Shown piece after piece: positions 2,899 to 25,441 of a stretch of 64,000 nt of DNA. The DNA comes from Haloterrigena sp. KLK7. Its GTDB lineage: Archaea > Halobacteriota > Halobacteria > Halobacteriales > Natrialbaceae. The DNA lies in assembly GCF_037914945.1 (NCBI RefSeq), contig NZ_CP149787.1:3658001-3722000 (forward strand). The letters run 5' to 3'. The number at the start of each line of letters is the position of its first letter. Position 1 is the first letter of the stretch. Made by a program: the position numbers and the translations under genes. The notes beneath the pieces were generated by a model. That model saw only the letters and a program-made list of their open reading frames with translations, made no database searches and was not told the DNA's origin.

Positions 2899-4308
2899 AT
2901 GACAGATCACCAGCAGTCCCAACGGGAGTCGACGGAACAGCTCCAGCAGACGACGATGAATCAGGGCCAGGAAGCGATCGAGCAGGCGATCGACCTCCAG
3001 CGAAACATGGCCCGGATGGCCCTGAGCGCGATGCAGTGGCAGGACACGGCCCAGCAACAGGGTCTCGAGCTGACGAAGTCGATGCTGCAGGGGTTCCCGG
3101 GCCAGCAGTTCACGCAGTCGGTTATACAGAGCTATCTGCAGGGGCTCGAGGCCGTCATGCCGGAAATGGAGCGCGCGATGGAGAAAGGGATGCAGGCCGC
3201 CGCCCAGCCGGGGACGGAGATGGGACAGCAGATGGAACGGGCGGGTCAGGGAATAGAGCACGCGAGCCAGCGAATGGGCCGGCAGGGGATGACCGGCGGC
3301 ATGCAGACGGGCGGCCAGCAAATGCACGGCCAGCAGTCCGGTGGGCGGACGGGCGGTCAGTGGAACGCACAGGAGACCGGCGGGCAGATGGGCGGCCAGC
3401 AGTCCGGCGGCCGGCAGATGGGCGGCCGGCAGATGAGAGGCCGACAATCCGGTCACTCGAGCCAGCCGACGGGCGGGCGCTCACAGGGGACGGACGGTCA
3501 ACAGATGGGCGGCCAGCAGACAGCCGGCCGGGGGATGGGCGGCGACACACAGCAGTCGACGCAGCAGTCGTATCCGCAGACCGGCGAGTGGGTGTCACCG
3601 GAGCGGACCTACGGCGGTGAGTCTTCCGGAACGATGGATCAGGGCCAGAGCCAGCCCCAGCAGACGATAGCGTCCGGTCAGTCGGACCGATATTCGAAGC
3701 CTCCCGAGTACGAAACGCGGTCCCAGACGGGCCAGTCGGGGACCGATTACGAGCCCCAGGACCAGTCCGGGTACAGCAGTCCGCCACAGGGCGGGCACGT
3801 CGAAACGGAGACGCAGCAGGGTCGGCGATCCGCGACGCCCACGCGGACCCGCTCCGAGACGCAGGGCCAGCACGGCCGGCAGGACTCGCAGTTCCAGTCG
3901 TCTCAGCAGGGCCAGGGACGACACGAGCAGCGACAGCGGGGTCGCGAGTTCGGACAGTCGAGCCAGCGTCGTCGATCCGCCCAGGCGCAGTCCCAGCAGG
4001 GCCAGCAGGGTCAGCAGGAACAGTCTCGAGAGCGGTACTCGCAGCGAATCGACACCGGGCGACGCGAGGGCGGTCGCGGTCGACAGCGCCAGCCGATCGC
4101 TCAGGAACAGGATCGACAGGGCGAGTCACCCGCTCGAGAGTTCGAACCGTCGGACTCCGACGAGCTCGAATCGTCCGACGTCGACGCGGACCGCGACTCC
4201 GATACCGACGAGACGCCCCGGGACGACATGGAGCTCTCGGCCGAGCGAAGCGACGCCGAGACCGACGAGGGCGCTGACGGCGAATCGCTCGAGGAGGAAG
4301 AGGAGTAG
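2899..4308 (+). CDS. Gln/Gly-rich low-complexity protein with helical N-terminus
   Basis: 469-aa protein starting at MTDHQQSQRES; the frame is open upstream to 2677, but composition changes at 2899 and a TTTATT element lies about 50 bp upstream. Residues 1-115 look helical and amphipathic (QEAIEQAIDLQRN, LELTKSMLQGF), somewhat like phasin or other surface-coating helices. Residues about 120-330 are a Gly/Gln/Met/Arg/Ser low-complexity region with many GGQ/GGR and MGG motifs. The C-terminus turns Arg/Gln-rich and then strongly acidic (ending ESLEEEEE). There is no transmembrane segment. Such composition suggests an intrinsically disordered scaffold or a granule/condensate protein. Function is not recognised; the phasin resemblance is weak. 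Confidence 0.75.
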   Translation: MTDHQQSQRESTEQLQQTTMNQGQEAIEQAIDLQRNMARMALSAMQWQDTAQQQGLELTKSMLQGFPGQQFTQSVIQSYLQGLEAVMPEMERAMEKGMQAAAQPGTEMGQQMERAGQGIEHASQRMGRQGMTGGMQTGGQQMHGQQSGGRTGGQWNAQETGGQMGGQQSGGRQMGGRQMRGRQSGHSSQPTGGRSQGTDGQQMGGQQTAGRGMGGDTQQSTQQSYPQTGEWVSPERTYGGESSGTMDQGQSQPQQTIASGQSDRYSKPPEYETRSQTGQSGTDYEPQDQSGYSSPPQGGHVETETQQGRRSATPTRTRSETQGQHGRQDSQFQSSQQGQGRHEQRQRGREFGQSSQRRRSAQAQSQQGQQGQQEQSRERYSQRIDTGRREGGRGRQRQPIAQEQDRQGESPAREFEPSDSDELESSDVDADRDSDTDETPRDDMELSAERSDAETDEGADGESLEEEEE

Positions 4309-4479: not shown

Positions 4480-5400
4480 CTAGCGAGTGTCGTTACCGAT
4501 GCGGTCGTCGTCGGAGTCGCGGTCGTTGTCGTCACCGATGAGACCGTCATTATCGTCGTCGTCGCCGATCAGCGAGTCGTCATCGGTACGGCGATCGGTG
4601 TCGTCAGTACGGCGATCGGTGTCGTCACCGATGAGACCGTCATCGTCGGAGTGACGGTCGTTGTCATCGCCGATCAGGGAATCGTCGTCGTTATCGTCAC
4701 CGATGAGGCCGTCATCGTCGGAGCGGCGGTCGTTGTCGTCGCCAATCAGTGAATCGTCGTCGTTGTCGTCACCGATGAGGCCGTCGTCATCGGAGCGACG
4801 GTCGTTATCGTCGCCGATCAGCGAGTCGTCGTCGTTATCGTCACCGATGAGGCCGTCGTCGTCGGAGCGACGGTCGTTGTCGTCACCGATCAGCGAATCG
4901 TCGTTGTTATCATCGCCGATAAGACCGTCATCGTCGGACGTGCGGTCGTTGTCATCGCCGATCAGCGAGTCGTCGTCCCGGTCGGTGCCGGGCGTTCCGG
5001 CGCCGGCGTCCGTCTCGGAGGCGCCCATGCTCGTGTCGGTCGCCCCGGTCTCGGTCTCCCGCTCGGACGCACCGGCCGCCGTATCGGTCGTCGTGGTCCG
5101 GTCCGTGTCCATGTCCGTCGTGCCGCCGGCGCTGGTCGCACCGCCGCCGGCGCTCCCGGAGAGGTCGCTCTCGAGGCGTACCTCGTCGTTGGTCACGCGG
5201 GCCACCGAGCCCTCCTGGAGCGGGTAGGTGTCCTCGTCGGACCCGCCCCAGCCGAGTTTGGCCTTGATCGTGTCCGTGATTCCCGGGTCCGGTTCGACGT
5301 GCGCGGTACCGTGTTCGACGTCCGCGATCAGGCCGACCTCCTCGCCGTTGGCGTTGACGACGCTCTTGCCGATGTCGTCGTCGGTAAACTGTGGAGACAT
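4480..5400 (-). CDS. PRC-barrel-like protein with acidic 24-residue LIGDD tandem repeats
   Basis: 306-aa protein read leftwards, convergent with the Gln-rich gene. Residues 1-80 form a PRC-barrel-like beta domain (DIGKSVVNANGEEVGLIADV, later VARVTNDEVRLES). A Thr/Ser/Gly linker covers residues 82-142. From residue 143 to the end it is built of alternating SLIGDDND and GLIGDDND half-units, twelve LIGDD motifs in all. S-L-I-G recurs at residues 145, 169, 193, 217 and 241, an exact 24-residue period. The repeats carry paired Asp clusters that could bind divalent cations or stay hydrated in high salt. PRC domains elsewhere mediate protein or RNA contacts; the role here is unknown. There is no signal peptide. 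Confidence 0.85.
   Translation of the reverse strand: MSPQFTDDDIGKSVVNANGEEVGLIADVEHGTAHVEPDPGITDTIKAKLGWGGSDEDTYPLQEGSVARVTNDEVRLESDLSGSAGGGATSAGGTTDMDTDRTTTTDTAAGASERETETGATDTSMGASETDAGAGTPGTDRDDDSLIGDDNDRTSDDDGLIGDDNNDDSLIGDDNDRRSDDDGLIGDDNDDDSLIGDDNDRRSDDDGLIGDDNDDDSLIGDDNDRRSDDDGLIGDDNDDDSLIGDDNDRHSDDDGLIGDDTDRRTDDTDRRTDDDSLIGDDDDNDGLIGDDNDRDSDDDRIGNDTR
4610..4977. repeat. 72-bp tandem repeat array inside the PRC-barrel gene
   Basis: Five in-frame units of 72 bp encode the 24-residue SLIGDD/GLIGDD period. A degenerate continuation runs to about 4483. Copies differ mostly at third codon positions (gtcatc/gtcgtc, ttgtcg/ttatcg), so the protein repeat is under selection while the DNA drifts. 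Each unit has two half-units of unequal length (14 and 10 residues). Confidence 0.9.
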
Positions 5401-5513
5401 TGCAGTAAACTAGACACCAAAGAAAAGGATTACGGTGGTGCTTGCGGTGGCTTGCGGTTCGAGTCGTGATCGTGTCTCGCGGACGGACGACCGAGAACTC
5501 GCCGTCGGCCCGG

Positions 5514-6347: not shown

Positions 6348-7442
6348 TCACCGAAGCGGGGACCGGGACCGCTCCGAGCGGGTCTCGAGCGTCAGGTCGA
6401 GCGACTGCTCGGTTCCGTCTCTCAGCACGGTCAGACGGATCGTATCGCCCGGCCGCGTCCGGAGCGCCAGGTGACTCGCCAGGTCTTCGAGCGATCGTAC
6501 CTCGGTCCCGTCGACCGCGAGAAGCACGTCGCCGCCGACGGGAATCCGTTTTCCGTCGACGAACCGGACCTCGCTCCCGCGGAGCACGCCGTCGGCGGGC
6601 CCGTTACTGACGGTCTCGACCGCGACTAGCCCGCGAGGGTCGTCCATCCCGTTCGCGTCGGCGACTGCCGGTGTGACGGTCTCGAACGAGACGCCCATGT
6701 AGGCGTGTTCGTAGCTTCCGTTTTCGATGAGTCGCGGGACGACGCGCTGAGTGAGCGCCGCCGAGATTCCGAACGCGATGTCGTCCCCGCGCTTGGAGTT
6801 GACGACGCCGACGACCGTTCCGTCCACGGACATCAGCGGACCGCCGCTGTTGCCCGGATTCACCGCCGCGTCCGTCTGAATCGCGTCCGGGATCCGGTAG
6901 CCGCTCGGCGACGGAATCAACCGGTCGGTCCCGCTCACGACGCCCGTCGTGACGGTGCCGTCGAGGTCGTACGGATTTCCGATAGCGACGACCTCCTGGC
7001 CGATCACGGGTCGCGTCTGAGCGAACGAAAGCGACGTCGCCGAGTCGGGCGTCGAGTCGGGGCTGATGACGGCGAGATCGCTGTGAACGTCCCGTCCGCG
7101 TACCTCGCCGGTAGCCCACGTTCCGTCGTCGAACCGGAGTTGGGTGGTGCGTGCGCTCCCGACGACGTGGGCGTTCGTGATCACGTGGGCGTCATCGTAC
7201 AGGAACCCGGTCCCCTGCCCGTGGCTCGTCCGGACCGAAACGACGGACGAGATCGCGTCGCGGTAGACCTGCGAGTACGCGCTTCCATCCGCCCGCGACT
7301 GTGTGTCCTCCGATGATACCTCGGACTGATCCGGAGACGATTCAGCCGGGGAGAACTGTTCGAGACAGCCCGCAAAGGAACCTGAAAGGGCAATACTGCC
7401 GATTTTCAGAAATTGCCGGCGGCTGGTCGTCTCTCGTGACAT
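6348..7442 (-). CDS. HtrA/DegP-family serine protease with PDZ domain, Tat lipoprotein
   Basis: 364-aa membrane-anchored quality-control protease facing the cell exterior. The N-terminus has a twin-arginine signal (TSRRQFLKIGS) followed by a lipobox ending at Cys26 (GSFAGC). The S1C catalytic triad is visible as His92 (TNAHVV), Asp122 (HSDLAV) and Ser199 (NPGNSGGPL). A PDZ domain occupies about residues 250-355 (GVLRGSEVRFVDGK, later LASHLALRTRPGDTI). I prefer the ATG at 7442 over a TTG three bases upstream. An A+T-rich stretch with ATAGTATAC lies just upstream and probably includes the promoter. Confidence 0.93.
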   Translation of the reverse strand: MSRETTSRRQFLKIGSIALSGSFAGCLEQFSPAESSPDQSEVSSEDTQSRADGSAYSQVYRDAISSVVSVRTSHGQGTGFLYDDAHVITNAHVVGSARTTQLRFDDGTWATGEVRGRDVHSDLAVISPDSTPDSATSLSFAQTRPVIGQEVVAIGNPYDLDGTVTTGVVSGTDRLIPSPSGYRIPDAIQTDAAVNPGNSGGPLMSVDGTVVGVVNSKRGDDIAFGISAALTQRVVPRLIENGSYEHAYMGVSFETVTPAVADANGMDDPRGLVAVETVSNGPADGVLRGSEVRFVDGKRIPVGGDVLLAVDGTEVRSLEDLASHLALRTRPGDTIRLTVLRDGTEQSLDLTLETRSERSRSPLR

Positions 7443-7712
7443 CAATGTATACTATTTGATCTTATTACCCGTCTATCTTTCGGTCGGCTGACGAACAACG
7501 GATTCGATTCGGAGAGACGGGTCGGTACCGGCTGTGCTTCGAAGGCGCTCTCGAGTGATGAACGCGGATGGGATCCCTATCGGTGCAGCTACGCGTGCGA
7601 CCGATCAACTGCGCGGTAAACGGCGAAAACCGTGCTGCCGATGCGAAAACATCGAGTGGTACCGGGAGCGGCCGACGGAACCGCGAGTCGGCCGGGGCGG
7701 TATCGGACCTGC

Positions 7713-8381
7713 TCAGTTCGAGGGCACCGGCGGGGCGACGGTCTCGTCCTCGGAGACGTTCAGCTCCGAGGTGACGAGCGCGCGGTAGGCCCGGCGGAGG
7801 CGCTCGGAGAGCGCCTGGTGGGAGATTCCGAGCTCCTCCGACAGCTCCTGCATCGAGACCTCGCGGGGGATCTCGAAGTAGCCGTGATCGATTGCCGCGA
7901 CGAGGGTCTCGTACTGCCGGGCGGTGAGACCGCACTGACTCTTCGTCTCCTCCGCGAGATCGAACAGGCGGACGATCGTCGGCGTGACGCCGGCCTCGTC
8001 GAACCGGTCGTAGAGCGAACTCACGCTCTCGCGGTCGGCGAACCGGATGCTCAGCAGCCACGTGCCGCTCGAGGCCGACGCGCTCAGCACCGTGCCGTTC
8101 TCCTCGAGGATCAGCTCGAAGAGATCGATGGTGTCGGGTTCGAACTCGATGTCGTAGAGCCAGCGGTCGTCCTCGCTGTTGATCAGCGTGTAGGACCCGA
8201 TCGCCGAGGCGTCGTCCAGCGCCGTCTCGATCTCCTCCTGAGACGGGCCCGACAGCCAGAGGCCGTGGCCGCTCGAGGCGATCACGCGCTCCATTTCACA
8301 GGTCAGTGAGGGGACCGCCTCGAACAGCTCGCCGGTTCCGGTTCCGTCGGCCGGAATCTCGATGTCTGCGATCGATGTCAT
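7713..8381 (-). CDS. HTH_10 (bacterio-opsin activator/DmsR-type) transcription regulator
   Basis: 222-aa regulator. The C-terminal about 55 residues are the haloarchaeal HTH_10 domain (LTARQYETLVAAIDHGYFEI, then SMQELSEELGISHQALSERL). The N-terminal 150 residues are the variable sensor-like part found in bat/DmsR relatives. The ATG at 8381 was chosen over one at 8393 because the downstream sequence (MTSIADIEIP) is the typical beginning of this group. It lies at the end of the molybdoenzyme and molybdate/tungstate transport cluster, 132 bp beyond the permease gene. In haloarchaeal DMSO respiration clusters such a protein activates the reductase operon, so a role in regulating this cluster is likely but inferred. 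Confidence 0.9.
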   Translation of the reverse strand: MTSIADIEIPADGTGTGELFEAVPSLTCEMERVIASSGHGLWLSGPSQEEIETALDDASAIGSYTLINSEDDRWLYDIEFEPDTIDLFELILEENGTVLSASASSGTWLLSIRFADRESVSSLYDRFDEAGVTPTIVRLFDLAEETKSQCGLTARQYETLVAAIDHGYFEIPREVSMQELSEELGISHQALSERLRRAYRALVTSELNVSEDETVAPPVPSN

Positions 8382-8513
8382 GATTTCAACCATGAGTACG
8401 ACGGGGATCCCAATAACCCCGTTTCCAAAGAGATTAGCAGCGATGAAACCGAATTACATTACCAGTGACACTTCTTGCAAGCAAGTCGTTCATCCGGTGG
8501 TATCGGTCCGCCG

Positions 8514-25147: not shown

Positions 25148-25441
25148 TTACGCGATCAACTCTTCCTCTTCCTCGTCGGGTTGGCGGACGCGTTCGACGA
25201 CGTCGTTGATCAGGATGACGTCGCCGACGGCACGGACCCAGCGGTAGGGGACGATGACGCCCTGTCCGCTGCGGGTGGCGTCCGTGAATAGTTCGGAGTT
25301 GAGATTACCGAGTGCGAGTCCGGTGATGGCCTGGCCGTCGACGTTCAGTCGCAGATCTTCGACTTCGCCGACGAAGACGCCGTTGTTCGAGTAGACCTCG
25401 CGTCCGACGAGTGAGGTGATTTCCTGGGGAGTGTCGTCCAT
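25148..25441 (-). CDS. PRC-barrel domain protein
   Basis: 97-aa small protein made of one PRC barrel (TSLVGREVYSNNGVFVGEVE at the start, then ALGNLNSELF and VIVPYRWVRAVGDVILI) plus an acidic tail ending EEEEELIA. This matches the short haloarchaeal/methanogen PRC proteins related to the RimM C-terminal barrel, which may bind RNA or ribosomal partners. Starts at 25441 or 25453 are both possible; 25441 (MDDTPQEI) is the usual N-terminus. The 158 bp between it and the DHH stop hold nothing recognisable. Confidence 0.88.
   Translation of the reverse strand: MDDTPQEITSLVGREVYSNNGVFVGEVEDLRLNVDGQAITGLALGNLNSELFTDATRSGQGVIVPYRWVRAVGDVILINDVVERVRQPDEEEEELIA

Follow-up and report, generated by a model that had tools for sequence, protein, structure and literature searches.

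What does a haloarchaeal protein gain from a tail made largely of aspartate, in which the motif LIGDD recurs twelve times? The question is raised by a gene of Haloterrigena sp. KLK7 located at positions 4480 to 5400 (minus strand) of a 64,000-nucleotide stretch of contig NZ_CP149787.1, here called the window. A preliminary description of this DNA proposed that the acidic repeats, tethered to a PRC domain, could form a stacked or cation-bridged fibre analogous to RTX repeats. Our analysis favors a disordered strap of evenly spaced aliphatic stickers and acidic spacers, mounted on a PRC adaptor and engaged in multivalent binding, over such a fibre or cation-bridged solenoid; we give this reading a probability of about one-half.

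Gene Layout and the Head Domain

The gene, delimited by its open reading frame and by syntenic relatives, encodes 306 residues in three parts. Residues 1 to 80 (positions 5161 to 5400, minus strand) constitute a head, residues 81 to 140 (4981 to 5160, minus strand) a Gly/Thr/Ala/Ser/Asp linker that differs among relatives and has a pLDDT under 50, and residues 141 to 306 (4483 to 4980, minus strand) a poly-Asp tail of about 166 residues that carries all twelve LIGDD motifs, as defined by motif positions and AlphaFold2. Inspection of the N terminus revealed no hydrophobic signal stretch, and the protein is probably cytoplasmic.

AlphaFold2, supplied with a 12-sequence alignment, folded the head with a pLDDT of about 76 to 89 per ten-residue block, and 51 columns invariant among 12 aligned relatives fall within it. 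A Foldseek search with the predicted head returned Archaeoglobus fulgidus PRC1/PRC2 and CdpB1/CdpB2 (PDB 8qzo and 8onw; E value of 3.7e-4), with RimM next; reaction-centre H chains were also among the fold matches. VIA comparison with 8onw_A gave a Z score of 7.5 and an rmsd of 2.4 over 69 residues. Since this Z score is under 8, the PRC assignment rests on the consistent run of PRC proteins among the fold matches, by which the head is predicted to be PRC-barrel-like, as had been proposed. Pfam and NCBIfam profiles barely recognize it: the only Pfam match of the window protein was PRC_RimM, below the cut-off (E value of 0.07), and PF05239 matched 3 of 12 relatives, with a lowest E value of 0.0036. 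Neither the protein nor its profile has a sequence match in the PDB.

CdpB1 and CdpB2 are described as PRC-barrel proteins of archaeal cell division (PMC12186497). Orthology of the window protein to them is rejected on sequence grounds, given that it does not match the CdpB chains, whereas 8qzo is matched by two further genes from this genome (E values of 7.5e-17 and 9.6e-13); only the fold is shared. The gene with the lower E value, a second PRC gene of the window (25199 to 25420, minus strand), is a candidate CdpB1-like cell-division gene. Elsewhere in the genome, two PRC paralogues stand in tandem, and their acidic tails differ in composition from the one described here (contig 1, 2175342 to 2176244; L159 and L160). 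A tblastn search of plasmids detected PRC heads in 25 records; identity reaches 63% at most, and no match spans 80% of the query.

The LIGDD Array

LIGDD motifs start at residues 146, 160, 170, 184, 194, 208, 218, 232, 242, 256, 277, and 287. The reported alternation of 14- and 10-residue intervals is thus present, and the reported exact 24-residue period holds across five units (residues 145 to 264; positions 4609 to 4968, minus strand) but not over the whole array, the rhythm of which is broken by the final two copies (intervals of 21 and 10). Within the units, S-LIGDD (class A) and G-LIGDD (class B) alternate. TRF describes the same array as a 72-bp unit present in 4.9 copies with 88% matches. 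Leucine is encoded by CTG in class A copies and by CTC or CTT in class B copies, and therefore the A-plus-B pair was duplicated as a 72-bp block.

Block copying of this kind is a point in favor of neutral slippage, in which a GC-rich repeat expands and contracts without function. The differences between the copies argue against it. Among the five units, codon variants comprise 16 silent and 6 replacement changes, where 28% silent would be expected (binomial p of 1.5e-5; pN/pS of about 0.125), values that are only indicative because repeat copies share their history and are not independent. Of the 24 codon columns, 13 vary silently only, 5 contain replacements, and 6 are identical; pairwise comparison of the A-type core gives 25 silent differences and 0 replacements. 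The excess of silent changes supports selection on the protein sequence of the repeat, in line with the original suggestion.

A degenerate LIGDD codon pattern matched 20 places in the genome, 12 of them inside the window gene and the other 8 single and scattered, compared with 1 match for the reversed pattern used as a control. No further sticker array was detected in this genome by the pattern, which is blind to stickers of the LMD and LTD types.

Conservation of the Locus and of the Tail Pattern

The head was matched in 116 of the 125 family genomes searched (E values up to 1e-22). Our family sample consists of 81 proteins, namely the window protein and 80 fetched relatives, and the remaining 35 of the 116 lie outside the counts given here. 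Named relatives include Haloterrigena salina, Natrialba, Natrinema, and Natronococcus. At least one window neighbor (pyrB, the 1777 gene, enoyl-CoA hydratase, or a Bat-type regulator) is kept in 79 of the 80 relatives' loci, and neighbors are kept on both flanks in 68; nearly all relatives thus represent the same locus. Outside the family, 63 genomes have a head match; in 51 of the 60 fetched, the best match is a head without a tail, and these heads may be paralogues rather than orthologues. One other family has stickers in 7 of 9 genomes.

A Gln/Gly-rich low-complexity protein encoded convergently with the PRC gene (2899 to 4308, plus strand) has no Pfam or NCBIfam match; tblastn matched it in 36 of 80 relatives' loci, often over only about 100 residues. 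An HtrA-like protease with a PDZ domain (6348 to 7445, minus strand), encoded between enoyl-CoA hydratase and the Bat-type gene, is found at the same place in only 1 of the 80 relatives (L080).

We defined the acidic part of each tail by the earliest run of ten residues that contains at least six D/E/N, and tails without such a run count as having zero stickers; one tail (L136) contains 28 masked residues. The sequence beyond residue 80 ranges from 4 to 250 residues among the 81 proteins. The acidic part is 48.8% Asp, which bears out the strongly acidic character first ascribed to it, and of its 6937 positions only 12 are aromatic and 3 are Lys. What is conserved is an aliphatic doublet (LI, LM, LL, or MI) every 7 to 10 residues inside poly-Asp, 404 of 525 sticker intervals being of this size. 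Of the 81 members, 74 have one sticker or more and 59 have three or more, with a maximum of 22; the literal LIGDD occurs in 53. In a shuffle test of the 63 arrays with enough aliphatics, the paired fraction of aliphatics was 0.86 versus 0.31 in shuffled sequences (47 of the 63 exceeded all 300 shuffles), and the coefficient of variation of their spacing was 0.24 versus 0.65 (57 of the 63 lay under the 5th percentile). Classes A and B alternate above chance as well (276 class changes in 495 neighbors; mean of 207 and maximum of 236 in 500 shuffles).

The 24-residue register does not extend to the relatives. Best periods range from 8 to 29 residues and copy numbers from 0 to 22, and the lag of best self-match varies among lineages. 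A lag of 24 comes first in 6 of 44 long arrays, of which five are from the genus of the window protein; the sixth member of that genus prefers 14. An exact 24-residue period is consequently ruled out as the functional unit. Copy number and period vary even within this genus (7 to 12 stickers), and some lineages have lost the tail, as neutral slippage would allow. The preliminary description had held that an array scrambled in orthologues would indicate such neutral expansion. Order and copy number are indeed scrambled, yet the grammar of the motif persists, and simple neutral expansion fails as an explanation too. One sticker type recurs although array periods differ, and 20 of 23 genera include a member with three or more stickers; we regard slippage as improbable.

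The tail might instead be an entropic or solubility brush that supplies only charge and hydration for solubility in brine, with the doublets merely tolerated. Such a brush would agree with the high Asp content, with the differently built acidic tails of most members of one genus of the sample (genus 10), and with the short ones of another (genus 15), in which many members carry just one or two stickers. Neither paired, evenly spaced aliphatics nor an A-type core devoid of replacements would be needed for a plain brush, and we consider this reading rather unlikely. The changing number and order of the repeats, combined with a kept pattern, suggest a strap that binds at multiple points, not a rigid fibre.

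Zero stickers were found in 7 of the 81 members. The proteins L120 and L121, which occupy the same contig places as the loci L041 and L040 of Natrinema hispanicum and N. limicola, are 84 residues long; L112 and L113 stop at 90, L155 at 93, and L087 at 117, and the tail of L099 is rich in Asp, Ser, and Arg. The tail has been lost in several relatives and is thus dispensable in some lineages and not essential everywhere.

Predicted Structure and Scans for Cation-Binding Motifs

Structure prediction, suggested at the outset as a check on the repeat, gave a folded head and no structure for the tail. AlphaFold2 assigned no secondary structure to the tail with the 12-sequence alignment, nor to the isolated tail without an alignment (pTM of 0.11), in models of which ions are not part; a regular fold that needs ions to form is conceivable. 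A cation-bridged repeat fold of the RTX, EF-hand, or thrombospondin type 3 kind would fit the Asp/Gly/aliphatic composition, the loose EF-loop pattern that 32 of the 81 proteins contain one or more times, and the near-regular 9- or 8-residue arrays of some lineages (L138 and L140). The specific signatures point the other way. The RTX nonapeptide GGxGxDxU was found in 0 of 81 tails, and the EF-hand loop (Asp at positions 1, 3, and 5, Gly at 6, and an acidic residue at 12) is absent from the window protein. At 266 B-type sites, EF position 1 is Asp in only 38%, while adjacent non-ligand positions reach up to 96%. A dockerin pattern (7 matches in the window protein; at least one in 66 of 81) proved too loose for Asp-rich sequence and was discarded.

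Motif scans, the position profile, and the two structure predictions thus lend no support to an RTX-, EF-hand-, thrombospondin type 3-, or dockerin-like reading, and the RTX analogy is not borne out. With the irregular register and no secretion signal seen, we judge a cation-bridged fold to be highly doubtful. A solenoid or cation-bridged fibre requires a constant register and constant ligand positions, neither of which is kept; the register is scrambled in relatives, and the fibre proposed initially is accordingly disfavored.

A Conserved Upstream Element

An element of the form GCAAGC-N4-GCAAGCANCA lies upstream of the gene (5436 to 5455, minus strand), with 45 nt separating its second half from the ATG. 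GCAAGCANNA is found upstream in 75 of the 81 members, exactly 45 nt before the ATG in 70, while the remaining upstream region is variable; 53 members have the direct repeat GCAAGC-N4-GCAAGC. The element is probably a promoter or regulator site. The full element has only one mismatch-free copy in the genome. When the pattern is relaxed, at a distance of 42 nt from an ATG and with up to one mismatch, it occurs nine times versus seven in the reversed control, a total not above background; four of the nine are notable by their placement directly upstream of PRC paralogues, and one precedes a 68-residue open reading frame. Both tandem paralogues described above have this looser form. The copies before the four paralogues suggest shared regulation of PRC genes.

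A Bat-type HTH_10 regulator (7713 to 8393, minus strand) precedes the PRC gene, an arrangement shared by 65 of 80 family loci. In the other sticker-bearing family, 6 of the 9 genomes fetched have a Bat-type regulator (35 to 39% similar) in the vicinity of the PRC gene. The Bat-type protein might act on the upstream element.

A Proposed Multivalent Strap in Molar Salt

Sticker-and-spacer disordered proteins lack a stable fold and carry interaction residues at regular intervals along a soluble spacer. The tail is a candidate for this class by its spacing and composition and by the disorder that AlphaFold2 predicts with a shallow alignment or none. Support for the strap comes from the presence of the same sticker in arrays of unlike period, from a grammar kept through lineage-specific re-expansions, and from the likeness of the predicted head fold to the dimerizing PRC domains of CdpB1/CdpB2. 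The sticker-less members, several of which end at 84 to 93 residues, and the deviating genera 10 and 15 count against it.

In molar salt, charge contacts are screened and hydrophobic contacts are strengthened. In molar KCl, hydration and extension of the chain would be maintained by the Asp spacers, and contacts made by the aliphatic doublets would be expected to strengthen with salt. The doublets could bind weakly, many times over, in a hydrophobic groove on a partner or on other tails. The PRC head, whose fold serves for pairing with further proteins in both CdpB1/CdpB2 and RimM, would dock the strap where it acts. Avidity would depend on the number of stickers, and this would account for a copy number that drifts while the sticker stays constant. 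More speculatively, and in our estimate with little likelihood, the strap may be a salt-tuned adhesive: stickers would associate with each other, or hold on to a common partner, only when internal salt is high, the PRC scaffold forming a condensate or lattice that exists in brine and disassembles on dilution, with sticker number tuned in each lineage.

To our knowledge, disordered multivalent proteins in cells with molar salt have been little explored. In this family, head and locus are both conserved while sticker number varies naturally from 0 to 22, and so the effect of that number is directly measurable in related species.

Comparison with Known Systems

Titles and opening abstract lines of the literature on LIGDD, archaeal and haloarchaeal PRC-barrel proteins, and disordered halophilic proteins yielded no account of the sticker tail. 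CdpB1 and CdpB2 share the predicted PRC head fold (8qzo and 8onw) but have no sequence match to the window protein, and the parts of their description available to us do not mention a sticker tail (PMC12186497). RTX nonapeptides likewise are short Asp/Gly/aliphatic repeats, whereas the window family lacks GGxGxDxU, a fixed nine-residue register, and a predicted beta roll. Electronegative clusters and acidic disordered tails, as far as the consulted portion of their description goes, resemble the present tail, as predicted, in being long disordered acidic runs attached to a folded domain (PMC8348266); here, regular aliphatic doublets are added, in a haloarchaeal PRC protein family. Unlike the usual sticker-and-spacer proteins, finally, the window family has stickers that are aliphatic rather than aromatic, spacers of almost pure Asp, and a high-salt cytoplasm as its setting.
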